From: Williamsia soli
GTDB taxonomy: Bacteria; Actinomycetota; Actinomycetes; Mycobacteriales; Mycobacteriaceae
Length of the DNA: 64,000 nucleotides
Assembly (NCBI RefSeq): GCF_017377795.1
Contig: NZ_JAFRDR010000001.1
Location: forward strand, 558,001 to 622,000
Direction: 5' to 3'
Shown here: one piece after another, positions 29,048 through 57,670 of the stretch
Numbering within the stretch: position 1 is the first letter of the stretch
Layout: each line of letters begins with the position of its first letter
Notes under the pieces: generated by a model
What the model saw: the letters and a program-made list of their open reading frames with translations, nothing else
Told to the model about the DNA's origin: nothing
Database searches by the model: none
Made by a program: the position numbers and the translations under genes

Positions 29048-29851
29048 CTAGATCCGCGAGCGCCGGATCGACTGGATGGCCTGCCGGGACATGGCGGCAG
29101 AGGCGTTGACCACCCGATCGCCGTAGCGGTCGAGAACCAGCGCCTGGGTCGCGGCCAGGTGGGCGCGCGCGAGCCGCTCCGCTTCTTCTGCCCGACCCGC
29201 TGAGATCTCGTCGACCAGTCTGCGATGCGCGCGGACGGCTTCCTCGGCCTCGATCTCGGACGGATATTCGCCGTGCCGGGTGCGGGCTTCGGCCCACGCC
29301 TCTTCCTGCGCCGACCAGAGGGCGACATAGCTGCCAACCGCGTACCGGATGGTCGCGTTCGGGGTGAACGAGACGACGAGGTCGTGGAAATCGCGGGCAC
29401 TGTGGGTGAACTCGACGCCGTTGCCGACGAAACCGACCGAGGCATCGATGGCGGCTGTCAACGCCGGTACGACGACGTCGGCGCGGTCTTCGCGCCGGGC
29501 GCACTCGGCCGCGCACGTCGGTTCCAGCATTTGGAGCCCCGCGGCCAGATCTCGGAGCGTCACGCGGGCGGCTTGTAGGGACAATCCCAGGTGATATGCC
29601 GCCGAGGTCTCGTCCGGCCGGTGTACGTCCGCGCCGCCGACGTTCCCCCGTCGGACCGTGACCAGACCTTCGGTCTCCAGGATCCGCAAGGCCTCACGGA
29701 TCGAGGGATAGCTGACACCGAAGTCCTTGACCAGCTGTTCCTGGGTGGGCAAGCGATAGTCTTCGACGTCGAGGATGGCGTCGCGGATCTCCGCGGCAAC
29801 CGTTTCGGCGATCCGGCGCTGGGGAACCCGACCGTTCCTGATCGTCGTCAC
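29048..29851 (-). CDS. GntR/FadR-family transcriptional regulator
   Basis: 267 residues. The N-terminal winged helix (about residues 12-80) contains LPTQEQLVKDFGVSYPSIRE and ALRILETEGLVTVRRGNVGG. The C-terminal FCD domain (about 95-230) has SARDFHDLVVSF and AHRRLVDEISAGRAEEAERL, with several His/Asp residues that bind metal or an organic acid in this family. It is divergent from the acyl-CoA dehydrogenase operon and is the only regulator in the 28-kb catabolic cluster. The 101-bp gap between them carries operator A, so it is the first candidate for the regulon repressor. Its operator would be unusual for FadR proteins, which typically bind GT-N-AC sequences. Confidence 0.9.
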   Translation of the reverse strand: MTTIRNGRVPQRRIAETVAAEIRDAILDVEDYRLPTQEQLVKDFGVSYPSIREALRILETEGLVTVRRGNVGGADVHRPDETSAAYHLGLSLQAARVTLRDLAAGLQMLEPTCAAECARREDRADVVVPALTAAIDASVGFVGNGVEFTHSARDFHDLVVSFTPNATIRYAVGSYVALWSAQEEAWAEARTRHGEYPSEIEAEEAVRAHRRLVDEISAGRAEEAERLARAHLAATQALVLDRYGDRVVNASAAMSRQAIQSIRRSRI

Positions 29852-29909
29852 CTGGACCGCATTTCGTTCATTTCGAGGAGTCTAATCTAATCGGCAACGC
29901 CCGACCATT

Positions 29910-29945
29910 CAAGTATTCCAATCCTATCAATGATTGAAGTAATGT
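29910..29945 (+). promoter_or_regulatory. Operator A and promoter of the acyl-CoA dehydrogenase operon
   Basis: The palindrome CAATCCT-N4-ATGATTG lies at 29919-29936, preceded by CAAGTATTC and followed directly by AAG and the box TAATGT (29940-29945). The -35-like TTCCAA lies 18 bases before the -10. TAATGT ends seven bases before the ATG at 29953, so the mRNA is probably leaderless. The palindrome sits between -35 and -10, the position expected for a repressor. Confidence 0.75.
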
Positions 29946-29952
29946 GGTTTGC

Positions 29953-31104
29953 ATGGACTTCACGATGGGGGAGGCGGCGACCCGACTGCGCGAGGAATTG
30001 CGGGGGTTGCTATGGGAGCAGGTCCCCGCAGACTTCCGCGGCGCGTTTACCGATGACCCGGCCGATCTCGAGACCGCGCAGGAGTTCTGCCGATTCCTGG
30101 CTGAGCGCGGGTTGCTGTGTCTGGCCTGGCCCGAGCGGTTCGGCGGACGCGACGCGTCGGTGTGGGAGCAGACCGTGGTTCGCGAAGAGATGTGGGCGCA
30201 TCACGAGCCGCGGGGCGCCCAGTACATGGGGGTGAACTGGGTGGGGCCGACCATCATGCGGCACGGAACCCCCGAACAGCAGCGCGAACACTTGCCGCCC
30301 ATCTCGCGGGGCGACGTCATCTGGTGTCAGGGCTTCTCCGAACCGGGGTCGGGCTCCGACCTCGCCTCTCTTCGCACGGCGGCTCGGCGCAGCGGTGACG
30401 GATGGCGCATCTCGGGTCAGAAGATCTGGACCTCCTACGCGACGATGGCGCAGTGGTGCTTCTTGCTGGCTCGGACATCCACGGGCGAACGTAAACAACA
30501 GGGCCTCACCGTGTTCCTGGTTCCGATGTCGGACCCCGCGATCGAGGTGCGCCCCATCCGCGCGATGTTGGGACCTCACCATCTCAATGAGGTGTTCTTC
30601 AACGACCTCGAGGTCACGCAGGCGCATGTCCTGGGCACCGTCGGCGAGGGGTGGAAGGTGGTCCAGGAGGTGCTCGCCTTCGAGCGCGTGGGCATCGCCC
30701 GGTACGCCCGGTGTGAACGTCTCCTGCAACAAGCCCCGACCGTCCTCGGCGACGAGTGGGAGAACGTGCCTGCCGAGTTACACGGACGTTGGAGCCGGAT
30801 GCTGGTCCATTGCCGACGCGCCCGGTTGCTCGCCTACCGGGTGGTGGCGATGCAGAGCGAGGGTCGGGTGCAGCCCGCCGACGCCGCCGTCTACCGCATA
30901 GCTGTGACCACCCTCGACCAGGACAGTGCCGAGGTTCTCACCGAGATCGCTGCGCATGCAACCTCATCAGACGACGACACCGAACGCTTTCGACGTGACG
31001 TCCGAGATCACTGGAGCTACTCCCAGGCCGCCACCGTGGCCTCGGGCAGCATCGAGATGCAACGGATCTTGTTGGCGCGAACCCTCCTGCCGGCGGCGTC
31101 ATGA
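29953..31104 (+). CDS. Acyl-CoA dehydrogenase, large-type subunit
   Basis: FAD-dependent desaturation of an acyl-CoA. 383 residues with the signature WCQGFSEPGSGSDLASL (about residue 120-136) and the C-terminal SGSIEMQRILLARTLLP. It lacks the RxQFG motif that the neighbouring shorter dehydrogenase has. Large/small complementary pairs of this kind form alpha2-beta2 enzymes in steroid side-chain degradation. The ATG at 29953 is leaderless behind TAATGT; an upstream GTG at 29944 lies inside the -10. It overlaps the next gene by four bases. Confidence 0.9.
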   Translation: MDFTMGEAATRLREELRGLLWEQVPADFRGAFTDDPADLETAQEFCRFLAERGLLCLAWPERFGGRDASVWEQTVVREEMWAHHEPRGAQYMGVNWVGPTIMRHGTPEQQREHLPPISRGDVIWCQGFSEPGSGSDLASLRTAARRSGDGWRISGQKIWTSYATMAQWCFLLARTSTGERKQQGLTVFLVPMSDPAIEVRPIRAMLGPHHLNEVFFNDLEVTQAHVLGTVGEGWKVVQEVLAFERVGIARYARCERLLQQAPTVLGDEWENVPAELHGRWSRMLVHCRRARLLAYRVVAMQSEGRVQPADAAVYRIAVTTLDQDSAEVLTEIAAHATSSDDDTERFRRDVRDHWSYSQAATVASGSIEMQRILLARTLLPAAS

Positions 31105-32048
31105 ACATCGAGTTGAGTGCAGAGGCATCCGAGTACGGCGCGGCGGCGCTGCGGGCATTCGAGTCCGCGGGCGGCGACGCACTGGTCGAATCCGCCGAAC
31201 GCGACCCCTGCGGACGCGACAGACTGGTCGCCCCGGTCTTCGAAGGGCTCGGCGCCTGGGATCTGGAGCCCCGCAAGAACAGCGACGAGCTGGAAGCTGC
31301 AGCGGCACTATGTCGCAGTGCCGGTCACTGGGCCGTGCCCTATCCGGTCGCCGAACGTCTTTCCCGGCCTACCGATCTCGACGTCGACGGTCTCCTGGTG
31401 ATTGCAGATAGCAACCCGGCGGCAGCCGTGTCCGATCTGGATCTGCGGTGGGCGGCAGTCACCCTTGCCGGTCAGCGCGCTGTGGCGACAGTGCGCTCGA
31501 CGAGCGAGTCGCCGCGCACAACCGCGTTCGTCGCACCCCTGGAACTCGAGTCACTCGACGCCGGTGGCGCCGCCGACGTCGCCCTCGGGCTGGTGCTGCC
31601 GTGTTGGACGCTGCTCGGAATGCTCGACCGTGCACTGGCCCTCACCCGCACCCACGTCCTGCTGCGGGAACAGTTCGGCCGTCCCCTCGCGCAGCTGCAG
31701 GGCGTGCAGTTCCAGCTCACCGATGCCGAGGTCGAACGCAGCGGCGTCGAAGTGCTCGCGAAGTATGCGTTGTGGAGTGTCGAGGCGGGACACGACGAAG
31801 CCGTCGACGACGCGCTCGCGCTACGGTTGGCGGCGATCGAGGCCGCGGACGTGGTCTTCCGCGTCGCCCACCAATTGCACGGAGCGACAGGATTTTGCGA
31901 CGAGACCACCCTGTCGTGGCTTTCCCGGTACAGCCTTCCGTTGCGCCGGTTGCCGTTCGGTTTGTCGGCGACCAATGCGGCGCTGACCGCGCGCTTGGGG
32001 CGACGCGGGCTGACCGGATTGTTCACCGACGAGGTGGTGGCCCCGTGA
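31101..32048 (+). CDS. Acyl-CoA dehydrogenase, small-type subunit
   Basis: 315 residues, shorter than a normal acyl-CoA dehydrogenase. It retains LLREQFGRPLAQLQGVQFQL (RxQFG, about residue 190) and HQLHGATGFCDETTLSWLSR, which contribute to FAD binding across the dimer interface. It lacks the WCQGFSEPG segment seen in its partner. The ATGA overlap with the upstream dehydrogenase suggests a fixed ratio. I infer an alpha2-beta2 heteromer. Confidence 0.86.
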   Translation: MNIELSAEASEYGAAALRAFESAGGDALVESAERDPCGRDRLVAPVFEGLGAWDLEPRKNSDELEAAAALCRSAGHWAVPYPVAERLSRPTDLDVDGLLVIADSNPAAAVSDLDLRWAAVTLAGQRAVATVRSTSESPRTTAFVAPLELESLDAGGAADVALGLVLPCWTLLGMLDRALALTRTHVLLREQFGRPLAQLQGVQFQLTDAEVERSGVEVLAKYALWSVEAGHDEAVDDALALRLAAIEAADVVFRVAHQLHGATGFCDETTLSWLSRYSLPLRRLPFGLSATNAALTARLGRRGLTGLFTDEVVAP

Positions 32049-32827
32049 CGTACGACTTGCCACCCGAGCTGATCGTCGAGTCCGACGGGCCCATTCGTAC
32101 CGTGGTGATCAACCGACCCGGCGACCTCAACGCCGTCAACAAGGACCTGCACTGGGCGCTCGCCAACGTCTGGCGCCAACTCGCCGCCGACCGGGATGCA
32201 GCCGTGGTCGTTCTCACCGGTGCCGGCCGGGCCTTCAGCGCAGGTGGTGACCTGAACTGGATCACCTCGTTCCTCGACGACCCCGTCGCGCGGGACGAGA
32301 GCGTACGTGAGGGCGCGGAGATCATCGACGAGATGTTGCGGTTCCCGTTGCCGGTGATCGCTGCGGTCAACGGTCCGGCGGTCGGATTGGGCTGCAGTAT
32401 GGCGGTGCTGTGCGACGTGGTGTTGATGTCGGAGAAGGCGCATTTCGCCGATCCGCATGTGGCCGTGGGACTCGTCGCCGGTGACGGCGGAGCGGCCTTC
32501 TGGCCGCTGCTGACACCCATTCTCAGGTCGCGCGAATACCTGTACACCGGTGACAAGATTCCGGCGGCGGTGGCCGTCGAGATCGGGCTTGCCACCCGCA
32601 CCACCGCCCCTGACGAGCTGTTGCCGACCGCCCACGCCCTGGCCGGACGGTTCGCCGCGCAACCGTCCGAGGCGCTGCGGAGCACCAAACGCATTGTCAA
32701 CATGCATCTCTCGCAAGCGTTGTCGGGCCCCCTGCAAGCCGGGTTCGCCGCAGAGGTCGCCACCATGCAATCGGACGAGCACCGGGACAAGCTGCTGGCG
32801 CTGGGTGGCACGGCGGCCCGTCGATGA
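32045..32827 (+). CDS. Enoyl-CoA hydratase/isomerase (crotonase family)
   Basis: 260 residues. INRPGDLNAVNKDLH and the oxyanion-hole segment GRAFSAGGDLNWI (near residue 70) are clear, as is NGPAVGLGCSMAVLCDVVL. The catalytic Glu position appears as DPHVAVGLVAGDGG, so one of the two usual Glu residues is replaced; the enzyme may be an isomerase or another crotonase activity. The GTG start at 32045 overlaps the upstream stop (GTGA) and the gene overlaps the next dehydrogenase by four bases. Confidence 0.88.
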   Translation: MTYDLPPELIVESDGPIRTVVINRPGDLNAVNKDLHWALANVWRQLAADRDAAVVVLTGAGRAFSAGGDLNWITSFLDDPVARDESVREGAEIIDEMLRFPLPVIAAVNGPAVGLGCSMAVLCDVVLMSEKAHFADPHVAVGLVAGDGGAAFWPLLTPILRSREYLYTGDKIPAAVAVEIGLATRTTAPDELLPTAHALAGRFAAQPSEALRSTKRIVNMHLSQALSGPLQAGFAAEVATMQSDEHRDKLLALGGTAARR

Positions 32828-34014
32828 CGGCGCCGGACCGCCAGGACTTCCGTACCGAGGTCCGCGACTGGTGCGCGGCGCACGTACCCACCACCTGGCG
32901 GAGCGAGCAGACCGGCGTCAGTGATGAGACGTTTGTGGCGTTTCAGAAGGCGTGGTTCGCCGAACTCCACGCGGCCGGTTACGCCGTACCGCATTGGCCC
33001 GCGGAGTGGGGCGGGGGTATGTCGGTCGCCGATCAAGTTGTGCTGTACCAGGAATTGGCAGCCCACGACGCACCCCGCCTGGTCCTGCCGTTCGTGTCGA
33101 TCCACCACGCGGCGTCCACCCTGTTCGCTGCCGGCACCGACGAGCAGCGCCGCCGCCATCTGCCGGCGATCTGCGACGGCGAGATCTGGTGCCAGGGGTT
33201 CTCCGAGCCCGGTGCCGGCTCCGACATGGCAGCGCTCTCCACCACGGCCCGCAAGGTCGGTGACTCCTACGTGGTGAATGGTCAAAAGCTGTGGGCCAGT
33301 GGGGCAGCACATGCCGACTGGTGTCTGCTGCTCGCCCGCACAGACCCGGACGCCCCCAAGCGCCGCGGCATCTCGTACTTCCTGTTGGACATGCGTACCC
33401 CCGGCGTGGAGGTCCGGCCGATCCGGCAGGCCACCGGCGAATCCCACTTCTGCGAGATCTTCCTCAGCGATGTGGTGATCCCGGCCGAGAACCTGGTGGG
33501 ACCGGAGAACGAAGGGTGGCGGGTCGCGCAGGAAACGCTCGGCGCCGAACGCGGGATGACCATGCTCGAGCTGGCGGAACGTCTGGGCCACGCGGGGTTT
33601 CCCTGGCTGGTCGACCTCTGTGGACGAGCCGGGGCTGACGGAACACGGCCGCTCGACGACGCGGTGGTCGCAGATCGACTTGCCTGCCTGGAGACCGAGC
33701 TCACCGGACTGCGTGCGCTGTGTGCAGCGTTCGTCGCCGACGACAATCCGGGCCCGGCCGATGCCTCGATCGTGAAGCTGTATTACAGCGAACTCCTCCA
33801 GCGCATGACCGACTTCGGCGCGGACGTGGCAGGCCTCGGCGGTCAAACCGCGCTGCGCAAGCCGATGTCGAGCGGATGGGAGTCGGGAAGCTGGGTGCTC
33901 GACTTCATCGGATCCTGGGAATGGACGATCCCCGGCGGGACCAGCGAGATCCAACGCACCATCATCGGGGAGCGAGGCCTCGGCCTTCCCCGCGAACCCC
34001 AGGCGGCGAAATGA
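32824..34014 (+). CDS. Acyl-CoA dehydrogenase, large-type subunit (second pair)
   Basis: 396 residues with WCQGFSEPGAGSDMAAL (about residue 122-138), ANGQKLW-type VVNGQKLWASGAAHADW, and the C-terminal IPGGTSEIQRTIIGERGLGLP. Like the first large subunit it has no RxQFG motif. It sits directly before a smaller dehydrogenase gene with an ATGA overlap, repeating the large-small arrangement of 29953-32048. Confidence 0.9.
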   Translation: MTAPDRQDFRTEVRDWCAAHVPTTWRSEQTGVSDETFVAFQKAWFAELHAAGYAVPHWPAEWGGGMSVADQVVLYQELAAHDAPRLVLPFVSIHHAASTLFAAGTDEQRRRHLPAICDGEIWCQGFSEPGAGSDMAALSTTARKVGDSYVVNGQKLWASGAAHADWCLLLARTDPDAPKRRGISYFLLDMRTPGVEVRPIRQATGESHFCEIFLSDVVIPAENLVGPENEGWRVAQETLGAERGMTMLELAERLGHAGFPWLVDLCGRAGADGTRPLDDAVVADRLACLETELTGLRALCAAFVADDNPGPADASIVKLYYSELLQRMTDFGADVAGLGGQTALRKPMSSGWESGSWVLDFIGSWEWTIPGGTSEIQRTIIGERGLGLPREPQAAK

Positions 34015-35087
34015 CAACGGCACAGTTCGAATTCGCCGAACTCCACGATGAGCTCGCCGCGGTCGCCCGTGAACTGCTCGGCTCCGCGCCGCGGGAGGTT
34101 GACGTCGATTGGAGCCTGATCATCCGATCCGGCTGGACCGGACTCGAGGTACCCGAGTCGCTCGGGGGCGCCGGCGCGACGTTCGCCGAGGTCGCGGTGA
34201 TCCTGCGAGAGATCGGACGGGCGGCGGCGCGCGGACCCTATCCCGCCGTCACCGGGATCGCCGGCGGCGCACTCGGACTGCTCGAACCGACCGCCCGCCG
34301 CGACGACCTACTCGCTGCCACCGCATCCGGGGACCGGGCCCCGGTGCTGGCGATGGCCGGTGAAGGCCTGTTCTCGAACAGCTTTCGGCTGACCGAATCA
34401 ACCCGCGGTCTGAAACTGAGTGGAGCCACAGACTTCGTGCTCGACGCTCCCCTGGCTGATCGGCTGCTCATTCCCGCGGTCGGCCGAGACGGAGCTGCCG
34501 TCATCGTCGATGTGGGTGCGCATTCGCCCGGCCTGCGCGTCGAAGAGCAACCGGTGGTCGACGAGACCCGATCTCTCGGCAGCGTGGCCGTCGACGACGT
34601 ACTGGTACCGCCCGATTCGATCATGGGATTCAATCCGGACTCCGAGCACTCGTTGGCGCGCCTGTACCACCGGGCCGCCGTCGTTGTCGCTCTGGACAGT
34701 CTCGGACTGAGCGAAGCGATGCTGGACGCCACGGTCGCCTATGTCGGGGTGCGCGAGCAATTCGGGCGCAAGATCGGATCGTTCCAGGCGGTCAAGCACG
34801 CCTGCGCCGACATGCTCGTCCAGATCACGATCGCCCGGACACTTGTCGCGGCGGCTGTGGCGGCACTCGCCGATCCCGACGCCGAGGCCGGTGCCGCGGC
34901 CGCCATGGCGAAGTCGTTCACCACTGCCATGGCCGTCGACGTTGCGGGCAAAGCGATGCAACTCCACGGTGGCATGGGCTACACGTGGGAAAGTGGCATT
35001 CACGTCCACCTCAAGCGGGCCACCCTCAACCGCTCACTCTTCGGTTCGCCTGCAGTACATCGTAAGACGATCGCAACGAGGTACTGA
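34011..35087 (+). CDS. Acyl-CoA dehydrogenase, small-type subunit (second pair)
   Basis: 358 residues. REQFGRKIGSFQAVKHACAD (about residue 246) and QLHGGMGYTWESGIHVHLKR near the C-terminus are present; the N-terminal WCQGFSEPG-type segment is absent. The ATG at 34011 overlaps the upstream stop (ATGA); the longer frame upstream overlaps the partner gene and is not real. It converges on the ligase gene at 35093 with five bases between. Confidence 0.88.
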   Translation: MTTAQFEFAELHDELAAVARELLGSAPREVDVDWSLIIRSGWTGLEVPESLGGAGATFAEVAVILREIGRAAARGPYPAVTGIAGGALGLLEPTARRDDLLAATASGDRAPVLAMAGEGLFSNSFRLTESTRGLKLSGATDFVLDAPLADRLLIPAVGRDGAAVIVDVGAHSPGLRVEEQPVVDETRSLGSVAVDDVLVPPDSIMGFNPDSEHSLARLYHRAAVVVALDSLGLSEAMLDATVAYVGVREQFGRKIGSFQAVKHACADMLVQITIARTLVAAAVAALADPDAEAGAAAAMAKSFTTAMAVDVAGKAMQLHGGMGYTWESGIHVHLKRATLNRSLFGSPAVHRKTIATRY

Positions 35088-35092
35088 GCGAG

Positions 35093-36799
35093 TCAGGCCA
35101 ATCTGGTGGCGGCCAGGGCCTTGATGTCGCTGGTCCTGATCTTCGCGCTGCCGGTCAGGGTGATCTCTTCTTCGTCGAAGAAGACCACCTCGCGCGGGAC
35201 CTTGTAGCTGGCGAGCTTCTGTTTGACGAAGGCGCGGATGCCGTCGGCGTCGAGATTCGCATCGGCGTGAGGCACGATGCAGGCGACCACGATCTCGCCC
35301 AGGGTTTCGTGTGGAAGGCCGACCGTGCGAGTCACTTTGACGCCCGGATGGGAGACGAGGACCTCGTCGACCTCAAGTGGTGAGACGTTGGCGCCTCCGG
35401 TCTTGATGATGTCGGTGAGGCGGCCTTCCCAGAAGAGCCGGCCCGCATCGTCGAGGTATCCACCGTCGCCGGTGGGGAAGAATCCCTCGTCGTCGACGGT
35501 CTCGCTCAGCGGGGTGCCGAGGTAGCCGAGCATCAGGGTGGGGCCTTTGACGCAGATCTCACCGCGCTCGCCCAAGGGGAGGGTGTCGCCGGTCAACGTG
35601 TCGACAATCTTGAATGTGACGCCGGGAAGGGGTGTGCCACTGCTGCCGCCGGCTTCTTCCTCGGTGGTGTTGGCGGGGAAAATCGATGAGATGGTGAAGG
35701 TCTCGGTGTTCCCGTACGCGTATCCGGGTTCGATCCAGTTCGCGGTGACGGACGGGTGGCGGGCCACCGGGGTGCGGTGGTCCACGAACCGCAGACTGCT
35801 CAGGTCTGCATTGCCCCAGTTGGGAGTGGATTCGAACTGGGCCCACTGATGCGGCCAGGCGAACGGGAAGTTGACCTTCTCGGTTTCGATGAGGTCGAGT
35901 GCCTCGACCGGGTCGAAGGTCTTCTGTAACACCAGGGAACCGCCGCTGGAGAGTGTATTGCCCAGCGCCATCGCGAAGTTGCCCGACCAGAAGAACCCGT
36001 TGGCGCTCCAGCAGCGGATGTTGTCATCGGGTCCGAAATGGTAGAGCTGCCGGAACCGCCACAGCTGGATGGCAACTCCGCGATGTGCGCTGAGAATGCC
36101 CTTCGGTCTGCTGGTGGATCCGGAGGAGAAGAAGAGCACGGCGGTGTCGCTGGGCTTGGTCGTCGCCGCAGTTGCCTCGATCAGCTCCCGCGGTTCGGCG
36201 TCGCCGCGGGCAAGGAACGTTTCCCAGGTCTCGATTGCGCTCGGCCCGTTCTCCCCATCGCCGACCATCGCTAGGTGGCGCAGGAACGGATAGTTGCGGG
36301 AGCGTAGCCCGCCGGGGGAGACCGACGCGAGCTGTGGTTCGAGCTCGGTCAGGACGGTGGCCACGTCGGTTTTCAGGATCTGGCGGTCGAACAGCAGCAC
36401 CGAGATCTCGGATACCCCGATGAGGTGATCGAGTTCGACCGGTGTGGAAAAGGTGCTCAGGGTGACCGCGACCCCTCCGGCCAGTGACGTCCCGAATACT
36501 GCCGAGATCCATTCGGGGCGATTGGTCATCAGCACGCCCACCCGGCCGTCCTTACCGATTCCGGCCGCCCGGAGTGCCTGCGCGACCTCGACCGCCCGCT
36601 CCCACAGTTCGGCGTACGTCCAGCGGACGACACCGTCCTCGGTATGGAAGACCAGGGCTTCGCGCTCGCCGTAGAGCGCCGTCACCTCACGGAGAAAGCC
36701 GGGCATCGTCAATGTCCCGAGCCCGGACTCTTCGTCGAGCGGTGGACCCGAGACGATCGACAGCGGTCGCAGTGATGAATCAACGGTGGGGGTGCTCAT
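35093..36799 (-). CDS. Acyl-CoA synthetase (AMP-binding)
   Basis: 568 residues. ATP loop FFSSGSTSRPKG (about residue 215), YGNTETFTISS, GDGGYLDDAGRLFWEGRLTD (about 460), and the C-terminal lysine motif LTGSAKIRTSDI. This activates a carboxylic acid as CoA thioester in the catabolic cluster. The ATG at 36799 has GAGAGG eight bases upstream. It is transcribed with the MaoC and AcuI-like genes from operator B (36 bp from MaoC; the divergent ACAD operon ends convergent to it). Confidence 0.9.
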   Translation of the reverse strand: MSTPTVDSSLRPLSIVSGPPLDEESGLGTLTMPGFLREVTALYGEREALVFHTEDGVVRWTYAELWERAVEVAQALRAAGIGKDGRVGVLMTNRPEWISAVFGTSLAGGVAVTLSTFSTPVELDHLIGVSEISVLLFDRQILKTDVATVLTELEPQLASVSPGGLRSRNYPFLRHLAMVGDGENGPSAIETWETFLARGDAEPRELIEATAATTKPSDTAVLFFSSGSTSRPKGILSAHRGVAIQLWRFRQLYHFGPDDNIRCWSANGFFWSGNFAMALGNTLSSGGSLVLQKTFDPVEALDLIETEKVNFPFAWPHQWAQFESTPNWGNADLSSLRFVDHRTPVARHPSVTANWIEPGYAYGNTETFTISSIFPANTTEEEAGGSSGTPLPGVTFKIVDTLTGDTLPLGERGEICVKGPTLMLGYLGTPLSETVDDEGFFPTGDGGYLDDAGRLFWEGRLTDIIKTGGANVSPLEVDEVLVSHPGVKVTRTVGLPHETLGEIVVACIVPHADANLDADGIRAFVKQKLASYKVPREVVFFDEEEITLTGSAKIRTSDIKALAATRLA

Positions 36800-36835
36800 G
36801 ACTCGACCTCTCGGGTGCCGCACGATGGGTGGTGG

Positions 36836-38032: not shown

Positions 38033-38044
38033 GTGTTCTCCCGC

Positions 38045-39028: not shown

Positions 39029-39080
39029 CGTGAGAGTCATTCCTTTCTGGGCCCGAAACGCCGATCACGCAATGGGGCTG

Positions 39081-39116
39081 ACATTACTTCAATCCTCACA
39101 AGGATTGCAATACTTG
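39081..39116 (-). promoter_or_regulatory. Operator B and promoter of the acuI-maoC-ligase operon
   Basis: Read leftward, CAAGTATTG, the perfect palindrome CAATCCT-N4-AGGATTG (39092-39109), then AAG and TAATGT (39086-39081). This is the same arrangement as operator A: 30 of 36 positions are identical and the spacing is the same. The -35-like TTGCAA is 18 bases from TAATGT. It lies between the stop of the SDR gene and acuI. Confidence 0.8.
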
Positions 39117-41416: not shown

Positions 41417-41431
41417 CCGTTACTAATACCA

Positions 41432-45572: not shown

Positions 45573-45574
45573 GG

Positions 45575-47735: not shown

Positions 47736-47752
47736 GGTCGTCCTCCTCTCCC

Positions 47753-49183: not shown

Positions 49184-49222
49184 GAGCAGTCCTAACTCTC
49201 TGTTGTGCAACGGGACGAGGCG

Positions 49223-50929
49223 TCACTGCTGGCCCTCGGCGTACCAGGTCCGGAACTCGTCGTAGCTCGGCATCTCTTCGGAGTTGGCCTTCGGGTCGAC
49301 GGCGACGTGGATGACACCCGGTTTGCCACTGGCATAGGCGCGTTTGATGGCCGGCGCGATGTCCTCGTCGCGGTCGACGTATTCGCCGTAACAACCGAAG
49401 CCCTCGGCGACCTTGTCGAGGCGGGTGTCGCTACTCCAGTGGACGCCGGTCTCGAGTGACCCCTGGCCGTAGGTGCGCTTGTAGACACCGACCTCCAAGC
49501 CCCAGGCGTAGTCGACGGCGACAACGCAGACCAGCGGGAGATTCAGGCGCGCAGCCGTCTCGAGTTCGGCGATGTGGAACTGGAACGACGAATCGCCGGT
49601 GATCAGCATCATCGGGCGTTTGCCGCCGTCGGCGACACCGGCGCCGACCGCGTACGGCAGGCCGGTACCGAGGTGGCCGAAGTTCTGATTCCACAGGACG
49701 TCATGGGGTTTGGCCTGCGAGTACGTCCAGCCGAAAATGGTGGTGGCGCCGCCGTCGCGGACCATGATGCCGTCGGACGGGAAGTCCTTGGTGGCCTCGA
49801 CGATGAGCCGGGCCGGATGCACGGGCGACATGCCGGACGGTGCCGTTTCGGCGAGTTCGGCCAGTTGCGCGGCGTCCTCTTTGATCCAGGCGGCCAGTTC
49901 AGGCGACGCCGTGCGTGGCGAGTCCTTCAGCGCGTCGACCAGCTGCGGGACGATCGCCCGCAGATCACCCACCAGGGGCACATCGATCGACCTGTTGACG
50001 CCGATGGCCGCCGGGTCCTGCTCGATGTAGATCCAGCTGCGATTGGCCTCGTTCGCCACCCAATGCCTGCCGCGCCCGAAGTGCACCGGTTCGCCGAGTT
50101 CGGTGCCGATCGCAAGGCAGAGGTCGGATGTGACGACCGCGTCGACCGCGGCCGTCGAGAAACCGTAAGGGAAGGTGCGGTCTTCGAGACCTTCGATGAA
50201 CGACGTGCCACCGGAGGTCTGGATGACCGGGCAGGCGAGCAGATCGGCGAGTTCCTTCACCGAGGCTCCCGCACGCGTGGTGTGGACCCCGTGACCGACC
50301 AGGAGGATCGGTTGCTTCGCCGCACCGATCAGGCGAACGGCCTCATCGATCTGAGCCTGGCCCGCGGTCTGCCCGACCAGACGGTATGCCTTCGGAGGCA
50401 GGGCCGGCGGCACGTCGAGTTCTTCCTGGATGACGTGGGACGGGTATTCGATGTACACCGGGCCGGGAGTTCCCGAGAGCGCCTTCCGCAGTCCCTCACG
50501 GATGATCTCGTCGGTCTGGTCGGCATATTCGATGCTGGCGCTGTACTTCACAGACGCCTCGACCAAGGCCGACTGCTGCACGAACTGGATACGGCCACGG
50601 CGGACGCGCTGTTCGGTGATGCGGGCACGTTGTCCACCGAGGAAGATGACCGGAGAGTTCTCGACCTTGGCGCACATGATGGCGCCGGCCAGGTTGGCGA
50701 TACCGGGACCGAGGGTGCCGATACACACCGCGGCCTTACCGGTCATGCGTGACACCGCCTCGGCCATGAAGCCCGCGGACTCCTCGTGGTGGGGCGCAAC
50801 GACATTCCAACCGCGCTCTTCGGCGAGGTGGAAGAGGTGGACGAAGTTGGGATCGGGAATTCCGAAGATGGTGTTGATGCCTTCGGCCTCGAAGAGGTCG
50901 AGGATGCGTTCGTAGACTTTAACCGACAT
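49223..50929 (-). CDS. Thiamine-diphosphate-dependent enzyme (acetolactate-synthase/HACL-like)
   Basis: 568 residues with the three-domain ThDP fold. The catalytic Glu is in APHHEESAGFMAEA (about residue 50). The ThDP/Mg motif starts GDSSFQFHIAELETAARL and ends VAVDYAWG, where the usual NN is VD, a variation. LGPGIANLAGAI and the central Rossmann domain are present. Options are 2-oxoacid decarboxylation to an aldehyde, or 2-hydroxyacyl-CoA lyase chemistry; the adjacent aldehyde dehydrogenase fits either. It overlaps the SDR gene upstream by 11 bases. Confidence 0.85.
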   Translation of the reverse strand: MSVKVYERILDLFEAEGINTIFGIPDPNFVHLFHLAEERGWNVVAPHHEESAGFMAEAVSRMTGKAAVCIGTLGPGIANLAGAIMCAKVENSPVIFLGGQRARITEQRVRRGRIQFVQQSALVEASVKYSASIEYADQTDEIIREGLRKALSGTPGPVYIEYPSHVIQEELDVPPALPPKAYRLVGQTAGQAQIDEAVRLIGAAKQPILLVGHGVHTTRAGASVKELADLLACPVIQTSGGTSFIEGLEDRTFPYGFSTAAVDAVVTSDLCLAIGTELGEPVHFGRGRHWVANEANRSWIYIEQDPAAIGVNRSIDVPLVGDLRAIVPQLVDALKDSPRTASPELAAWIKEDAAQLAELAETAPSGMSPVHPARLIVEATKDFPSDGIMVRDGGATTIFGWTYSQAKPHDVLWNQNFGHLGTGLPYAVGAGVADGGKRPMMLITGDSSFQFHIAELETAARLNLPLVCVVAVDYAWGLEVGVYKRTYGQGSLETGVHWSSDTRLDKVAEGFGCYGEYVDRDEDIAPAIKRAYASGKPGVIHVAVDPKANSEEMPSYDEFRTWYAEGQQ

Positions 50930-51860
50930 GTGCGCTGCCCTCCATGGCTATCGCGAAGCTCTTGGTGATGTGGTCGACGTGGGCCGACGGGACGACCGGC
51001 AGGATCCACGGGTCGCTGGTGTCGCGGATGGCGGCCATCTGCTCGCCGACCTCGTCGATGGTCCAGGACGGCCGGTAGACGCCGGGTGTCTCGGCGATGA
51101 AGGCCCGCGCCACCCTGCCGGCGATGGCCACCAGCATTTCCCCTGTGATCGAACAGCTCTCGTGTGCGAGCCACCCGACCGCAGGGGCGGTCAACTCAGG
51201 TCCCATCGGTGGGTACGCGGAGGTGTCGAGCCCCTCCGCGAGTCTGGTCAGGGCCGCGGGAACGATGACGTTCGACGTCACCCCGAACTCCTGGCCCTCG
51301 AGTGCCGCGACGTTGGACAAGCCGATGATCCCGGCTTTGGACGCGCCGTAGTTGGCGACGTTCTTGTTCCCGTAGATCCCGCCGATCGACGAGGTGAGCA
51401 CGATACGTCCGTATCCGGCAGCGCACATCAGCGGAAACGCGGGTCGGACAACATGAAACGCGCCCCGCAGGTGGACATCGAGCACGGCGTCGAAGTCCTC
51501 ATACGTCATCTCGGCCAGGGAGGCGTATCTGTTGTTGCCCGCGTTGTGGATGAGGATGTCGATCCGGCCGAAGTGCTCGATGGCGGTGTCGATGATCGCT
51601 TGGCCGCCCTCCGGGGTGGCCACAGATGCGGTGCTGGCCACGGCCTCGCCGCCGGCGGAACGGATCTCGGCGACAACCTCGTCGGCCGGACCGGAATCGA
51701 CGCTCTCCCCACTGATCGCGGCTCCGGGATCGTTGACGACGACCTTGGCGCCCTTCGACGCGAGCAGCAGGGCGTAGGCGCGACCCAGACCCCTGCCTGC
51801 GCCGGTGATCACGGCAACCCGGCCGTCGAACCTGAGCCCGGGTTCTTGGTGACCGATCAC
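50919..51860 (-). CDS. SDR, hydroxyacyl-CoA-dehydrogenase-like (MFE2-type)
   Basis: 313 residues. LRFDGRVAVITGAGRGLGRA with KVVVNDPGA matches the N-terminal dehydrogenase of peroxisomal multifunctional enzyme 2 and the mycobacterial (3R)-hydroxyacyl-CoA dehydrogenases. Ser is in TSSIGGIYG and Tyr/Lys in ANYGASKAGI. The extra C-terminal 70 residues also fit that group. GTG at 51860 overlaps the monooxygenase stop (GTGA). The substrate would be a (3R)-hydroxyacyl-CoA made by MaoC. Confidence 0.88.
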   Translation of the reverse strand: MIGHQEPGLRFDGRVAVITGAGRGLGRAYALLLASKGAKVVVNDPGAAISGESVDSGPADEVVAEIRSAGGEAVASTASVATPEGGQAIIDTAIEHFGRIDILIHNAGNNRYASLAEMTYEDFDAVLDVHLRGAFHVVRPAFPLMCAAGYGRIVLTSSIGGIYGNKNVANYGASKAGIIGLSNVAALEGQEFGVTSNVIVPAALTRLAEGLDTSAYPPMGPELTAPAVGWLAHESCSITGEMLVAIAGRVARAFIAETPGVYRPSWTIDEVGEQMAAIRDTSDPWILPVVPSAHVDHITKSFAIAMEGSAHVG

Positions 51861-53692
51861 TTCTCGAGTACCAACCCTTCGAGCTCGCCGGTATCGCGCC
51901 AAGCCTGCAGCAACTCGGTGAGCTCGTAGAACCCGCCCCAGAAGGGATCGCCGAGGAACGACCGCCCGTTCGGCTCTCCCTCGCTGTTGTAGTAACCGGG
52001 TGTGCACTCGGAGGTGAAGGTGCTGTTGTCGACCGAGTTCGCCCGGATCGTCGCGACCCATTCGTCTTCGGCCTCTGCGGTCGGCTCGACGTACGTGACC
52101 CCGCGGTCCTGGGCGGTCTTGATGATGTAGGCGATGTGGTCGGCCTGTTGCTCGAACATCAGAGTCGTCGATGCGGTGACGCCGCCTTGGACGAACCCGG
52201 TGGCGAAGTGGTTCGGGAACCCGTGCGCCATCACGCCGTGCAGCGTGCGGAACCCTTTGCCCCAGTGGTCGTACAGAGATGTCCCCTCGCGACCGGCGAA
52301 CGGCTTGATGTCGAACTGTCGGTCAAGGGCTGTGGTGATCTCGAAGCCACTGGCGAAGACGATGCAGTCGAACTCGTGCTCGACACCGTCGACGATGATG
52401 CCCTTCTCGGTGATGCGTTCCACGCCCTTGGTCTCGGACACGTCGACAAGGGTGACGTTGGGCCGGTTGAAGGTCGGCAGATACTCGTCGTTGAAGACTG
52501 GTCGTTTGCACATGTTGCGGTAGTACGGCTTCAACAGCTCCGCGGTCGCAGGATCGTCGACGATCTGCTCGACGCGTTGCCGCAGGCGCTCCATCGCCCG
52601 GTAGTCCTCGATCTCTTTGAGTTCCATGAACTTCGCTGGATCGGCCAGGGCTGCCCAGCCCGAGAAATTTTCAGTTGCGTTGAGTTTCGCGGCCATGTTG
52701 CGCGAGACCTCGGTCCAGCCGTCACAGATGAGGTCGGGCTCGCCGGGGGAGTAGAACGAGAAGGCCGCGTTGTGGAAGTTGCGCTGCCGCGCCGCCCGCC
52801 ACCCCGGCTCCAGGCTCGCCACCCACTCGGGGTCGGTCGGATAGTTGGCCCGCTCGAAGATGTAGGACGGGGTGCGCTGGAAGACGGTGAGGTGTTTTGC
52901 ACCTTTGGCCAGGTGCGGGATGGCCTGGATGCCACTCGATCCCGTGCCGATGACCGCGATCGTCTTGTCGGCGATCTTGTCCAGTCCACCATGCAGGTCG
53001 CCGCCGGTGTAGTCGTAGTCCCACCGTGCGGTGTGGAAGGTGTGTCCCTTGAAGTCCCTGATGCCCGGGATGCCGGGGAGTTTCGGTCGGTTGTAGGGAC
53101 CCTGGCACAGGATCACGTGCCGCGCACGGATTTCGTCTCCCCGGTTTGTACTGATCTGCCAGCGGTTGATGTCGCCATCCCATTCCAGGGAGCGGATCAG
53201 GGTGTGGAAGATCGCGTTGTCGTAGAGCCCGAAGTGCTTGCCGATGCGCTGGGCGTGTTCGAAGCATTCGTCGCCCTTGGAGAACTTCTCCTTCGGGATG
53301 TAACCGGTCTCCTCGAGTAGTGGGAGATAACAGTAGGCGTCGGAGTCGATCTGGATGCCGGGGTAGCGATTCCAGTACCAGACACCGCCGAAGTCGCCAC
53401 CCAGTTCGATGATCTTGACGTCCGTGACCCCCGCCTGCTGCAGGCGATGCGCGGCGATCAGACCGCAGAACCCGCCGCCGAGGATCACCACCTCGATGTC
53501 GTCGGTGATCGGCTGCCGTGGCGCCACCGGTGTGTGGGGATCGCCTTCGTAGAACTCCGAGAAGTCGTCCTCGGCCTCGAGGTATTGCTGCTGCCCGTCG
53601 GGCCGGATGCGCTTGTCGCGTTCGTGGAGGTACTTCTCACGAAGGGCGGGGATGTCGACCTCGGGAGTCTGCGTAGGTGCGCAGGGCTGCAT
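51857..53692 (-). CDS. Baeyer-Villiger monooxygenase (flavin-containing)
   Basis: 611 residues. FAD motif GGGFCG at about 72-77, NADPH motif GTGSSG at about 249-254, and between them the Baeyer-Villiger fingerprint FKGHTFHTARWD at about 214-225. The N-terminal extension of about 60 residues with TPVAPRQP is like large-ring monooxygenases such as cyclopentadecanone and steroid monooxygenases. It inserts oxygen into a ketone, giving a lactone or ester. It lies 46 bp downstream of the Rieske oxygenase and is coupled to the SDR. Confidence 0.94.
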   Translation of the reverse strand: MQPCAPTQTPEVDIPALREKYLHERDKRIRPDGQQQYLEAEDDFSEFYEGDPHTPVAPRQPITDDIEVVILGGGFCGLIAAHRLQQAGVTDVKIIELGGDFGGVWYWNRYPGIQIDSDAYCYLPLLEETGYIPKEKFSKGDECFEHAQRIGKHFGLYDNAIFHTLIRSLEWDGDINRWQISTNRGDEIRARHVILCQGPYNRPKLPGIPGIRDFKGHTFHTARWDYDYTGGDLHGGLDKIADKTIAVIGTGSSGIQAIPHLAKGAKHLTVFQRTPSYIFERANYPTDPEWVASLEPGWRAARQRNFHNAAFSFYSPGEPDLICDGWTEVSRNMAAKLNATENFSGWAALADPAKFMELKEIEDYRAMERLRQRVEQIVDDPATAELLKPYYRNMCKRPVFNDEYLPTFNRPNVTLVDVSETKGVERITEKGIIVDGVEHEFDCIVFASGFEITTALDRQFDIKPFAGREGTSLYDHWGKGFRTLHGVMAHGFPNHFATGFVQGGVTASTTLMFEQQADHIAYIIKTAQDRGVTYVEPTAEAEDEWVATIRANSVDNSTFTSECTPGYYNSEGEPNGRSFLGDPFWGGFYELTELLQAWRDTGELEGLVLEK

Positions 53693-53738
53693 GGTGATTC
53701 CTTGACTCGGGGGTTCGGGCAGGTGGGGAGGTGGATGG

Positions 53739-55133
53739 TCAGTCGAGATCGGTGGGCGCGCCGGTGCCCATGTACATCGCCAGGTTGTGGTGCAGGTTGA
53801 CGATGCTGCGTTCGCGATAGGGGTTGGGTTTGGGGCCGGTGAAACCGCGCGCCTTCATGCCCTTTTGCACCGCGGCCATGTTGGAGAAGTCTTGTGGCAG
53901 CACGGTCCGCCATCCGGGATCGTCCTCGGGTGTGTATTCCCACTTCGTCTCTGGCTCTTCGCCTTCGGGGAACAGTTCGTACACGGCGGCCTCGAAGATG
54001 CACTTGTCCGGATCGTCCCCGTACGGGCGGGCGCTGTAGCAGAGCATGTTGTTCAGCGCGTGCCCGATCTGGAAATTGGGGAAGATCTGCCACGCGGTGC
54101 CGCTTTTGGCGATCACCTCGGGATCGACTTCCGGCCAGACCACTCCGCGGTTGGCGTCGTCCTTCTTGGCCGAGGCGAGCCAGTGCCGCAGCACTTCGCC
54201 CGGCGGGGTTCCCTCGGGGAGTTCGTCGGTCAACCTCTCGGCCGCGTCGACGAGGGTCCGGGTGGTATTGGTGTTGGCGTTCTCCCAGGTGAAGTTCTGC
54301 AACTCGATGGTCGACAGGCGTGCGTCAGGTCCGTCAGCGATACGGAGCTTGGCCTGGTTCTCCTCCATGCCCTTCGGGGCGTCGTAGCCGATGTTGCTGT
54401 GCCGGCCCTGGTACCTCGACCAGCCCAGGAACGTGCCGAACTTCCGGAACTCGGGGTGGGTGTAGGGCACATGGTAGGTCTCCATGAACGCCTCGAGTGC
54501 CACCTTCCAGTTGCAGTCGAACACAAGCCATTTCCGCCAGCGGTACCGCATGTTCTGCAGCCCGAACGGGTCGAGGAGGGTGGCCGCCGGTTCGAGATAC
54601 TGTCGCAGCGGTTCGGCGTCGGGATCCATGTTGATCCACACCCAGCCGCCCCAGGTGTCCACCTGGACGGGCGTGAGTCTGGTCCGCTTGTCGGTCAACC
54701 CCGTTGGCCAGTCCTCTTTCTCGGCGGCCCAGGTGTTGTTGCCCTCGAGGTCGTAGGTCCACCCGTGGAAGCCGCAGACAAAGGCGCGGCAGCTGCCGCG
54801 TGCTTCGTGCTCGCCCGGTGCCCTGTCGACCAGCCGGCGCCCTCGGTGTGAGCAGACGTTGTGGTAGGCGCGCAGACTTGCGGTGCCGTCGGCGCTGTCA
54901 GGCCCGGTACGAGTGATGATGATCGAGTCGTCCATGATCTCGTACGTGAGGTAGTCGCCGACCTTCGGGATCTCCTCGATCCGGCCGACCTGCTGCCACA
55001 CCTTCGACCAGAGCAGATCGGCCTCTGCCCGTGCGTATTCCGGCGACAGGTAGGCGTCGACGCCGATGGTGAGCGGGGTCGTCGCCGGTGTCTCGGCGGC
55101 TGTTGTCTGGGCGTTCTCGACAGTGTCGGTCAT
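53739..55133 (-). CDS. Rieske non-heme iron oxygenase, alpha subunit
   Basis: 464 residues. The [2Fe-2S] ligands are Cys94/His96 (NVCSHRG) and Cys120/His123 (VCGFHGW); 23 residues lie between the two pairs, a few more than usual. The mononuclear iron site is in EAFMETYHVPYTHPEF (about residues 213-228) with two His. The C-terminus is like the phenylpropionate/terpene oxygenase branch. No beta subunit, ferredoxin or reductase gene is in this window, so electrons must come from elsewhere. It would hydroxylate the substrate first in the pathway. Confidence 0.92.
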   Translation of the reverse strand: MTDTVENAQTTAAETPATTPLTIGVDAYLSPEYARAEADLLWSKVWQQVGRIEEIPKVGDYLTYEIMDDSIIITRTGPDSADGTASLRAYHNVCSHRGRRLVDRAPGEHEARGSCRAFVCGFHGWTYDLEGNNTWAAEKEDWPTGLTDKRTRLTPVQVDTWGGWVWINMDPDAEPLRQYLEPAATLLDPFGLQNMRYRWRKWLVFDCNWKVALEAFMETYHVPYTHPEFRKFGTFLGWSRYQGRHSNIGYDAPKGMEENQAKLRIADGPDARLSTIELQNFTWENANTNTTRTLVDAAERLTDELPEGTPPGEVLRHWLASAKKDDANRGVVWPEVDPEVIAKSGTAWQIFPNFQIGHALNNMLCYSARPYGDDPDKCIFEAAVYELFPEGEEPETKWEYTPEDDPGWRTVLPQDFSNMAAVQKGMKARGFTGPKPNPYRERSIVNLHHNLAMYMGTGAPTDLD

Positions 55134-55158
55134 GACCTTCTCCCGTTGAAAATTGTTG

Positions 55159-56007
55159 TTACGACCGCGTCATGGCTGCGCGGAACGACTCGTCTTTGAG
55201 GAAGAGCGACGTGTGATCGGCACCCATGTGGGTCCACTTGAGGTTGAGGCCGCCGTCGACCAGCATGGTTTGTCCGGTGATGTAGGTCGACAGGTCCGAC
55301 AGCAGGAAGAGGATGGCCCCGGCCTGTTCCTCCGGGTTTCCGCGGCGACCCATGGCGATGGCTCGCTGGTCGCGATCGGGGTCGTCGTCGACGTACATGA
55401 GCGAGGCCGGGGTCGCGGTCACGCCTGGTGCGATGGCGTTCACCCGGATGCCATCGGTGGCCAATTCGACTGCCATCGTGCGGGTTGCGGCAACCAGTGC
55501 CGCTTTCGCGGTGCCGTATCCGATGTGGAACGGGGCCGTGTTCATCCCGCTGATGGACGAGATCGAGACGATGGAACCCGGTTTGTGCTGGGATTTGAGT
55601 TCGGCGGCTACGGCCTGACTCATGAAGAACATCGTCTCGAGGTTCTGGGTGAACAGATCTCGCCAGTCGGATCGGGTGACGCGGGTGGCGGGCATCCAGG
55701 TCGCCGGCCCCGCGCCGCCGGTGACGTTGACCAGACCGTGCAGTTCTCCCTCGGTCCGCCGGACCTCGTGGAGCACGGCCGCGATGCCGTCGTCGGTGGC
55801 GGCATCGGCGGCCACCGGTATCACCGAAAGGCCCTCGGCAGCCAATGGTTCGATGTGTTTGTTCAGGTTCTCTTCCGAGCGGCTGACCGCGATCACGGTG
55901 GCGCCGGCCTGGGCCACCAGGCGGGTCACCGACGTTCCGATGCCACCGCCTGCTGCTCCCGAGACGACAACGACCTTGCCGTCGAGCCCGATGAAATCCT
56001 GCGCCAC
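55159..56007 (-). CDS. Short-chain dehydrogenase/reductase
   Basis: 282 residues. GAAGGGIG is the cofactor motif (one Gly more than the standard), NVTGG replaces NNAG, Ser lies in SISSISGMN and Tyr/Lys in IGYGTAKAAL. VDGGLNLKW is near the C-terminus. A good candidate to oxidise the alcohol from the Rieske oxygenase to the ketone used by the Baeyer-Villiger enzyme. GTG at 56007 lies two bases after the SMP-30 gene's stop. Confidence 0.88.
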   Translation of the reverse strand: MAQDFIGLDGKVVVVSGAAGGGIGTSVTRLVAQAGATVIAVSRSEENLNKHIEPLAAEGLSVIPVAADAATDDGIAAVLHEVRRTEGELHGLVNVTGGAGPATWMPATRVTRSDWRDLFTQNLETMFFMSQAVAAELKSQHKPGSIVSISSISGMNTAPFHIGYGTAKAALVAATRTMAVELATDGIRVNAIAPGVTATPASLMYVDDDPDRDQRAIAMGRRGNPEEQAGAILFLLSDLSTYITGQTMLVDGGLNLKWTHMGADHTSLFLKDESFRAAMTRS

Positions 56008-56009
56008 GA

Positions 56010-57602
56010 TCAGCTCCCCGCCCGCAGCGCCAGGACACTGCCTTCCGCATCGCCCGAGATGTACAGCGTCCCCTCGGCGTCGGCGGCGATTCCGGCGTAG
56101 GGCCCCTGGGGTCCGGAGAACGGCGCGAGGCCCACGAGCGGCTTGGGTTCGACACCCGGGGGTGCGCCGACGGGGAGGTTCTGTGCCAGGGTCTGCCTGG
56201 CCTTCGACTCGAGGTCGAACGCGACTAGAGTCTTGGCGTCGACGTCGACGATATAGAGCGTGCTGCCGACAACGACGATGCCCTGGGGGCGTTCCAGGCC
56301 GTCGACCAGGGTGTCGACGCCCGAACCGGTCACCGAGACGATGCGTCCCGCGCCGGCTTCGGAGACGAGCAGGGTGCCGTCGGCGGTGAACGCGACGCCG
56401 GTCGGGTCGGCCAGTCCGCCTGCGAGCTCGGTCGCGTTACCGGATTCGACGGAGTACACCTTGCCGGTGCCCAGGTCGGCGACCGCAATCGCGCCGGTGG
56501 CCGAGACCGCGACGCCGTAGAGCTGGTCGAGTCCCTCGACCAGCACTTCGCTCTCGCTGCTCGCCGGGTGGTACCGCGACACCGTGCCGTTGCCGGTCAC
56601 GATGAACTCGCCGTCGCCGGTGGCGGTGAGGCCTCGGATGTAGCCCGGGTAGCCGGGACTGAAAAGCATGCCCAACGTGTGCAATTCACCGCCGCGCGGT
56701 TTCGCGAGCAGGAAGGTGCCGTCGGCGATGTAGAGGGTGCCGTCTCTTCCGACGGTGATGTCGAGGGGCCAGGTCAATCCGTCGGGCAGGGCGGTGCGGG
56801 TCTCGCCGCCACCGAGGATCTCGGTGATCTGACCGGTGAAGCTGGAGACGAAGAGCCGGTCGCCCACGAATGTGAGGTTGTCGAGCCCGGGGCTCAGACT
56901 CGCGAGCACCGTCTGATCACCGTTGCGCGGATTGATCCGCAGCACCTGCCCCGAGGCGACCTGGGTTGAGACGATGAAGCCCTCGGAGTCGAACTTCACG
57001 GCGTCAGGTACCCCGAGATCGCCTGCGACACGCTCGGGTTCGCCTCCTTCGGGGTCGATGCGCCAGATGTCGTTGGTTCCGAGAAGGGGGTAGTAGAGCT
57101 TGCCGTCGGGTCCGACCTCCATGCCGTTGGGCATCGGGAGTTCGTCCAGTAACACCCGCGGCGCGCCGCCCACCGGATCGATCTCCATCAGCCGTCCGCC
57201 GACGCGACACTCGTTCACGAAGAGCCTGCCCTGATGGATGGTGATGCCGTTGGCGCCGGGGAGGTCGTCGCGGACCAGGCGAGTCCCGCCGTCGGGACTG
57301 CGCACGCTGACCCGGCCGTCGTAGTACTCGGTGATGTACATGTCGCCCGACGGTGCGAAGGCGACGTCGTCAGGGGCGACGATGTCACCGCCCTTGGCGC
57401 TGATCGTCTCCAGCTGCCCGGTGTCGAGGTCGAGTGCGCTGATCTGACTGCCTGCCACCTGAGCGACGTAGATGCGACCGTCCGGGCCGGTCCGGATGCC
57501 GTTCGCGCCGAACAGCCGGCTCGGTGCGGTGACCCGCTCGAGGTTCCACCCTTCGGCGAGGGTGATCGATGTCGAGCCGGTGTAGCGGGCCGCCTGCGTC
57601 AC
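56010..57602 (-). CDS. SMP-30/gluconolactonase-like beta-propeller protein
   Basis: 530 residues of repeated blades of the form GPDGxxYVA, for example GIRTGPDGRIYVAQVAG, MEVGPDGKLYYPLLG, TVGRDGTLYIADG. This is the SMP-30/NHL-type propeller seen in lactonases. It is about twice as long as a single SMP-30 lactonase (near 300 residues), so it may be a double-blade or scaffold form. A Ca-binding lactone hydrolase that opens the Baeyer-Villiger product is a good inference. First gene of the ten-gene leftward operon; GTG start with GGAGG eight bases upstream. Confidence 0.82.
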   Translation of the reverse strand: MTQAARYTGSTSITLAEGWNLERVTAPSRLFGANGIRTGPDGRIYVAQVAGSQISALDLDTGQLETISAKGGDIVAPDDVAFAPSGDMYITEYYDGRVSVRSPDGGTRLVRDDLPGANGITIHQGRLFVNECRVGGRLMEIDPVGGAPRVLLDELPMPNGMEVGPDGKLYYPLLGTNDIWRIDPEGGEPERVAGDLGVPDAVKFDSEGFIVSTQVASGQVLRINPRNGDQTVLASLSPGLDNLTFVGDRLFVSSFTGQITEILGGGETRTALPDGLTWPLDITVGRDGTLYIADGTFLLAKPRGGELHTLGMLFSPGYPGYIRGLTATGDGEFIVTGNGTVSRYHPASSESEVLVEGLDQLYGVAVSATGAIAVADLGTGKVYSVESGNATELAGGLADPTGVAFTADGTLLVSEAGAGRIVSVTGSGVDTLVDGLERPQGIVVVGSTLYIVDVDAKTLVAFDLESKARQTLAQNLPVGAPPGVEPKPLVGLAPFSGPQGPYAGIAADAEGTLYISGDAEGSVLALRAGS

Positions 57603-57629
57603 GGTGGGCCTCCATTCGTCGAAGAAGCT

Positions 57630-57670
57630 GCACTACTTCAATCATTGCTATCCTTGTTAGGATTGGAGTG
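57630..57670 (-). promoter_or_regulatory. Operator C and promoter of the ten-gene leftward operon
   Basis: The core palindrome is CTATCCT-N4-AGGATTG (57648-57665, one mismatch). Read leftward it continues into GCAATGATTGAAG and a box TAGTGC (57635-57630), nearly the same as the CAATGATTGAAGTAATG of operator A. The gene starts at 57602, 28 bases beyond the box. TAGTGC is weaker than TAATGT in A and B. Confidence 0.7.

Follow-up and report, generated by a model that had tools for sequence, protein, structure and literature searches.

A conserved candidate operator palindrome and its probable GntR/FCD regulator at a catabolic gene cluster of Williamsia soli

Introduction

Transcription regulators of the FadR (FCD) subfamily of GntR proteins, among them NanR, PdhR, CGL2915/LldR and FadR itself, respond to a small-molecule effector that is often a carboxylate. 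The common operator of this subfamily, according to PMC4494728, consists of TKGT and ACMA boxes 2-3 nt apart, with arginine-guanine contacts made from positions 28 (Arg35 of FadR) and 38 (Arg45) of the helix-turn-helix; an aspartate at position 28 is described there as a probable contact to cytosine. In the same text a single operator lies in a divergon with the regulator gene, and BioR and NanR are named as members whose operators, TTATMKATAA and TGGTATAW direct repeats, fall outside the consensus (PMC4494728). Here we describe a protein encoded by Williamsia soli that shares the winged helix-turn-helix and the FCD domain with these regulators, as well as the divergon arrangement, but that matches the solved members of the subfamily only weakly in sequence (best E 2.6e-7) and whose proposed site, an 18-bp palindrome, is unlike the sites of BioR and NanR. 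We found no description of this site, or of the combinations of genes that it accompanies, in the open-licence literature, which is weak evidence of novelty.

Results

The window that we analysed is a stretch of 64,000 nt of W. soli (contig NZ_JAFRDR010000001.1, positions 558,001-622,000, forward strand), and all coordinates below are positions in it unless stated otherwise. At up to three mismatches it holds exactly four copies of the palindrome: putative operator A at 29919-29936, between the GntR gene and operon A (one mismatch), B at 39090-39107 (no mismatch), D at 41432-41449, between two divergent units (three mismatches), and C at 57648-57665 (one mismatch). An earlier sequence-only reading had placed A, C and D at these positions and B two bases away, at 39092-39109; it had also called B a perfect palindrome and A and B alike at about 30 of 36 positions, and both statements hold, with 30/36 identical. 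Its four sites stand, and its four transcription units become five, since D sits between two of them. By strand and spacing, these units comprise about 24 structural genes, to which the GntR gene beside A is added.

When a degenerate pattern was fitted to the four sites, it matched these four places and no other. Shuffled windows contain a mean of 1.34 matches at up to three mismatches, so that site D is not claimable from its mismatch count alone. A matrix built from 84 deduplicated sites, in which A, B and C were included and D was left out, ranks the four as the best places in the window (B 31.5, C 30.0, A 24.9, D 18.6), followed by places scoring 8.4 (overlapping C) and 1.2; the best score anywhere in 150 Markov-simulated windows was 16.6, against 18.6 for D. 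The D 18-mer is moreover identical at the same promoter in one Gordonia genome (G151) and two Williamsia relatives, and this promoter carries more symmetric versions in another Gordonia (G304), a Nocardia (G173) and two Actinomadura loci (L105, L106) and a weaker one in Actinomadura locus L108.

The palindrome is neither common elsewhere in the genome nor absent from related clusters, two of the three outcomes that the sequence-only reading had named as counting against a shared regulon. Across the 6.07-Mb genome, places with at most one mismatch are A, B and C only, those with exactly two number five and are scattered, and at up to three mismatches there are 93 per strand compared with 44 for a reversed control. 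We note that one weak palindrome outside the window (L131:4977-4994, at G000:C11:93976; score 15.4, CAATCATTGTTAACATTG) lies just before a short open reading frame that matches part of the AMP-binding family only and may be what is left of another regulated acyl-CoA ligase.

Among 401 genomes of the family the exact palindrome occurs in 20, and its reversed control in none. Sixteen of the 20 have it at an orthologous position, before ACAD1, the SGL operon or AcuI, and it is often flanked on its other side by the GntR gene. We rejected the exact matches in G064, G257, G310 and G344 as chance: they have no cluster gene near them and no GntR orthologue, and their centres (AGAA, CCGG, GTAC and ATAT) lie outside NRYN, although the G257 contig stops 150 bases after the match. 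Palindromes at orthologous promoters are found in Williamsia, Gordonia, Rhodococcus, Nocardia, Aldersonia, Amycolatopsis and Actinomadura, a conservation that rules out a chance repeat or a recent duplication of a promoter.

When genome contigs were scanned with the GntR protein, 48 named loci were retrieved, among them several strains of a single species, with the closest matches in Williamsia limnetica and Williamsia sp. 1135 (97%). These loci contain 5, 33 and 18 sites at zero, one and two mismatches, whereas the reversed pattern gives 0, 0 and 0 and 40 palindromes with permuted arms give means of 0, 0 and 0.2. At least one site with up to two mismatches is present at 29 of the 48. Of the 19 that have none, 14 are Nocardia loci whose examined stretch does not include ACAD1, and five are more distant loci (L108, L110, L112, L115 and L118), whose best matrix scores range from 11.5 to 21.5. 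A matrix scan of 13 of these 14 gave places scoring 9.4-23.8 in three Nocardia loci and no place of at least 9 around the GntR gene in ten; the regulator is thus not always accompanied by a good site at its own gene. Williamsia faeni (G119; L036 and L037) has the GntR gene twice (86% and 83%), with a palindrome next to each copy, and the second copy adjoins its own MaoC/SDR/BVMO/Rieske set. Further palindromes precede the TauD homologues of Rhodococcus-type genomes and of W. faeni (L139:6001, L140:6001 and L130:11788), and in some genomes the TauD/SDR part can form a unit of the regulon by itself.

The 84 sites share the 18-bp consensus C[AT]ATCCT-NRYN-AGGAT[AT]G. Sites were admitted to training at up to two mismatches from the consensus, after four chance-match loci (L028, L029, L035 and L040) had been left out, so the conservation of the arms is partly a product of selection, which is not the case for the NRYN centre and the flanks. 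A TTG directly before the palindrome together with TANNNT 2-4 bp after it accompanies 64 of the 84 sites but none of 4183 control positions, most of them coding, at distances of 60-600 bases from the sites. Where this geometry holds, the palindrome occupies the spacer together with the final three bases of a TTGCWA-like -35 hexamer. At A the -35 is TTCCAA (29916-29921) and the -10 TAATGT (29940-29945); at B, on the minus strand, they are TTGCAA (39105-39110) and TAATGT (39081-39086). The proposal that the palindrome sits between -35 and -10 needs correcting at A and B, where the 3' half of the -35 is covered along with the spacer, and at C, which like D lacks the standard geometry. At C a second conserved stretch, CAATGATTGAAGTAGTG, alike in A, follows the palindrome on the minus strand, and the likely -10, TAGTGC, is 12 bases downstream rather than 3. 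At D, -10-like hexamers occur at equal offset on both sides (TGATAG at 41453-41458 towards CaiB, TATTAG at 41423-41428 towards the ligase), so two overlapping divergent promoters could share a single operator. In 19 of 20 listed ACAD1 promoters (the exception is L112) the distance from the -10 to the start codon is 6-7 nt, and in the window it is 7 nt, which suggests a leaderless ACAD1 message starting at 29953.

Pfam assignments, with checked starts for operon A, give the following picture of the genes. Operon A (29953-35087, plus strand) encodes an acyl-CoA dehydrogenase (29953-31104), a second (31101-32048), an enoyl-CoA hydratase (32045-32827) and a third and fourth acyl-CoA dehydrogenase (32824-34014 and 34011-35087). 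Operon B (35093-39040, minus strand) encodes the acrylyl-CoA reductase AcuI (38045-39040; NCBIfam 527 bits against a cut-off of 440), a MaoC/FAS1-type dehydratase (36836-38032) and an acyl-CoA ligase (35093-36799, with a longer frame to 36823). To the left of D (39117-41416, minus strand) lie an acyl-CoA ligase (39875-41416, with an ATG at 41407) and an SDR (39117-39878), and to its right (41468-45539, plus strand; Pfam and NCBIfam) a CaiB-type CoA-transferase (41468-42622), an HpcH/HpaI (CitE-like) lyase (42619-43506), a further CoA-transferase (43503-44774) and an enoyl-CoA hydratase (44775-45539). Operon C (45575-57602, minus strand) comprises an SMP-30/gluconolactonase-like protein (56010-57602), an SDR (55159-56007), a Rieske oxygenase (53739-55133), a type I Baeyer-Villiger monooxygenase (BVMO; 51857-53692), a second SDR (50919-51836, start approximate), a ThDP enzyme (49223-50929), an aldehyde dehydrogenase (47753-49210), a TauD protein (46902-47735), a third SDR (46162-46905) and a CMD protein (45575-46165). 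Elsewhere in the window, at 12785-18009, a sulfatase, an elongation-factor-like GTPase fused to APS kinase, a PAPS reductase-type protein and an Stf0 sulphotransferase are encoded together.

Type I BVMOs carry the fingerprint FxGxxxHxxxW(P/D) alongside two GxGxx(G/A) motifs, and the operon C enzyme has FKGHTFHTARWD at residue 214, GGGFCG at 72 and GTGSSG at 249. Its best PDB match is 5mq6 (E 4e-120), which we take to be PockeMO; the surroundings of the Williamsia gene are catabolic. Its best NCBIfam match is the pentalenolactone D synthase PtlE type, at 654 bits and below the cut-off of 1100. Cyclohexane-1,2-dione hydrolase appears among the PDB matches of the ThDP enzyme (E 1e-32), where it ranks below acetolactate synthases, oxalyl-CoA decarboxylases and hydroxyacyl-CoA lyases. 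That hydrolase has an asparagine where the ThDP enzyme has a glutamate, in HHEESA, and this residue would speak against the same activity here. Our best guess for the substrate is a bulky cyclic ketone with branched degradation products.

The protein encoded at 29048-29851 (minus strand) has an N-terminal GntR winged helix-turn-helix (PF00392, 46.8 bits, cut-off 27) and a C-terminal FCD domain (PF07729, 43.3 bits, cut-off 24.3) that is all-helical in the AlphaFold model (pLDDT 87.5). The best Foldseek matches of the model are NanR, 6az6 and CGL2915, with query TM-scores of 0.32-0.62 among the 50 matches listed. Helix-turn-helix positions 28 and 38 correspond to residues 38 and 48 in our own alignment. 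In place of arginine, the 38 orthologues compared have aspartate (30) or glutamate (8) at residue 38 and tyrosine (all 38) at residue 48, whereas phmmer alignments show arginine at both positions in NanR, CGL2915, PdhR (5kvr) and the Rv0494 chimera; 9jpj has it at the first position alone. At locus L129, where no place scores 9 or more, two paralogues (47% and 40%) have leucine at 48, and one of them has aspartate at 38.

An orthologue of this protein, at a threshold of at least 60% identity and with one partial orthologue included, is present in 43 of the 401 genomes. The degenerate pattern CWATCMTNRYNAKGATWG, composed after the sites had been seen, occurs in 38 of the 43 genomes with an orthologue and in 3 of the 358 others (G033, G181 and G390, which we counted as misses), and its reversed control in none of the 401. 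ACAD1 (at least 70%; 72 genomes) served to separate the regulator from the cluster: the pattern is found in 38 of 41 ACAD1 genomes with the GntR protein and in 0 of 31 without it, and the three exceptions carry variants (G096, 25.5; G380, 23.2; G031, 29.0 and 29.2). GntR also occurs without the pattern in G109 and G384, in neither of which ACAD1 has a match; G109 has a place scoring 23.8 and G384 none of at least 9 in 17 kb by matrix scan. All 31 genomes without GntR belong to one genus (g29), within which the comparison is 3/3 against 0/31, and in the 17 of them that were inspected a CaiB gene precedes ACAD1 on its strand, with a best score of 5.5 in the region; in this different gene order the promoter in question is missing, which weakens the ACAD1 test. 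As the genomes are related, the counts are not independent and Fisher values are not true probabilities. In six Nocardia-type genomes the palindrome is still at ACAD1 though the GntR gene is elsewhere. We note that one GntR orthologue (G345:C1:1618014-1618799) has an internal TAG and that its adjacent palindrome is intact.

Three plasmids, all outside the training set, extend the comparison. Rhodococcus plasmid pUSK13 (GntR 68%) has places scoring 27.3 and 27.2 before a ligase and the SGL unit. The M. branderi plasmid pJCM12687 (GntR 48%) and plasmid pBSY17_1 of Sphingobium sp. RAC03 encode homologous enzymes and gave no place above 2.5 in matrix scans; the latter has an IclR gene nearby and no GntR match. 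Homologues of the ThDP enzyme (71%), Rieske oxygenase, BVMO, aldehyde dehydrogenase, SGL and SDR are found together on pBSY17_1 (L135), and different regulators seem to serve this enzyme core in different phyla, the Sphingobium plasmid being the alphaproteobacterial case.

Discussion

We regard the regulon, which is conserved across genera, as real, and we propose, with a probability of roughly 85%, that the GntR/FCD protein has the palindrome as its operator and would keep polymerase off operons A, B and C and both arms of D until released by a pathway intermediate. A dimer of the protein would bind C[AT]ATCCT-NRYN-AGGAT[AT]G, which at A and B lies across the spacer and the 3' half of the -35 and at C and D inside the promoter region, and would probably also repress its own gene through site A. 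An intermediate, most likely a carboxylate or an acyl-CoA, may bind the FCD domain and release the dimer, and ring hydroxylation by the Rieske oxygenase, Baeyer-Villiger oxidation, lactone opening and the ThDP and aldehyde dehydrogenase steps would then be switched on jointly with CoA activation and beta-oxidation-like degradation.

Two accounts would place another protein at the palindrome. The sequence-only reading took the GntR protein as its first candidate and allowed for an outside TetR-type regulator, and a TetR gene does stand beside the ACAD1 site in Nocardia loci L026, L031, L166 and L167, with homologues in 12 of the 20 exact-site genomes. However, no TetR homologue is found at E 1e-10 in G076, G259, G326 or G345, all of which have the site at the homologous locus, and the Williamsia homologue lies on another contig (C4, L119) with an ACAD-APH-ECH set and no place of at least 9. 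A weak place (14.2) in W. faeni (G119, L121) is 3.7 kb from the TetR gene. We thus consider a TetR-type binder very improbable, and this dissociation, together with the co-occurrence described above, favours the GntR protein, which on comparative grounds is very probably the regulator of the palindrome. It is equally hard to credit that the palindrome is the extended promoter of a special sigma factor. The fixed distances to TTG and TANNNT in 64 of 84 sites are what a promoter element would show, but the element is symmetric, 20 of the 84 sites lack this geometry, and genomes that have the same enzymes but no GntR orthologue lack the element.

The mode of regulation is a separate matter. The GntR protein might bind the palindrome and activate, or both activate and repress: our case for repression is read from geometry, and at site C, where 12 bases separate the palindrome from the -10, other modes could be accommodated. 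In the listed ACAD1 orthologues as at A and B, however, the overlap of the palindrome with the -35 and the spacer suggests repression and is a better fit to steric blocking, and we consider a role in activation unlikely, though less so than either account in which the GntR protein does not bind.

An objection raised in the sequence-only reading was that the GntR family usually binds GT-N-AC sites. The 84-site matrix indeed contains no TKGT or ACMA boxes, which places the operator outside the consensus of the FadR subfamily. The replacement of two guanine-reading arginines by aspartate or glutamate and by tyrosine offers a plausible answer: the changed contact residues may account for the missing GT/AC core. 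We would go further only tentatively, and at slightly less than even odds, in proposing that a branch of FCD-type GntR proteins with such a recoded reading (Asp/Glu and Tyr for Arg; ATCCT-N4-AGGAT) controls a pathway, so far undescribed, for bulky alicyclic (terpenoid- or steroid-like) ketones, whose enzyme core is common even to Sphingobium, with another regulator there.

Lastly, these findings turn an unannotated 29-kb cluster into a defined regulon with a candidate operator, regulator and promoter layout, and the palindrome provides a handle with which genomes can be searched for the same pathway elsewhere. For the family, the GntR protein would be a natural case of FadR-type DNA specificity changing while the fold is kept, for which the leucine-bearing paralogues, at a locus without the palindrome, are available for comparison.
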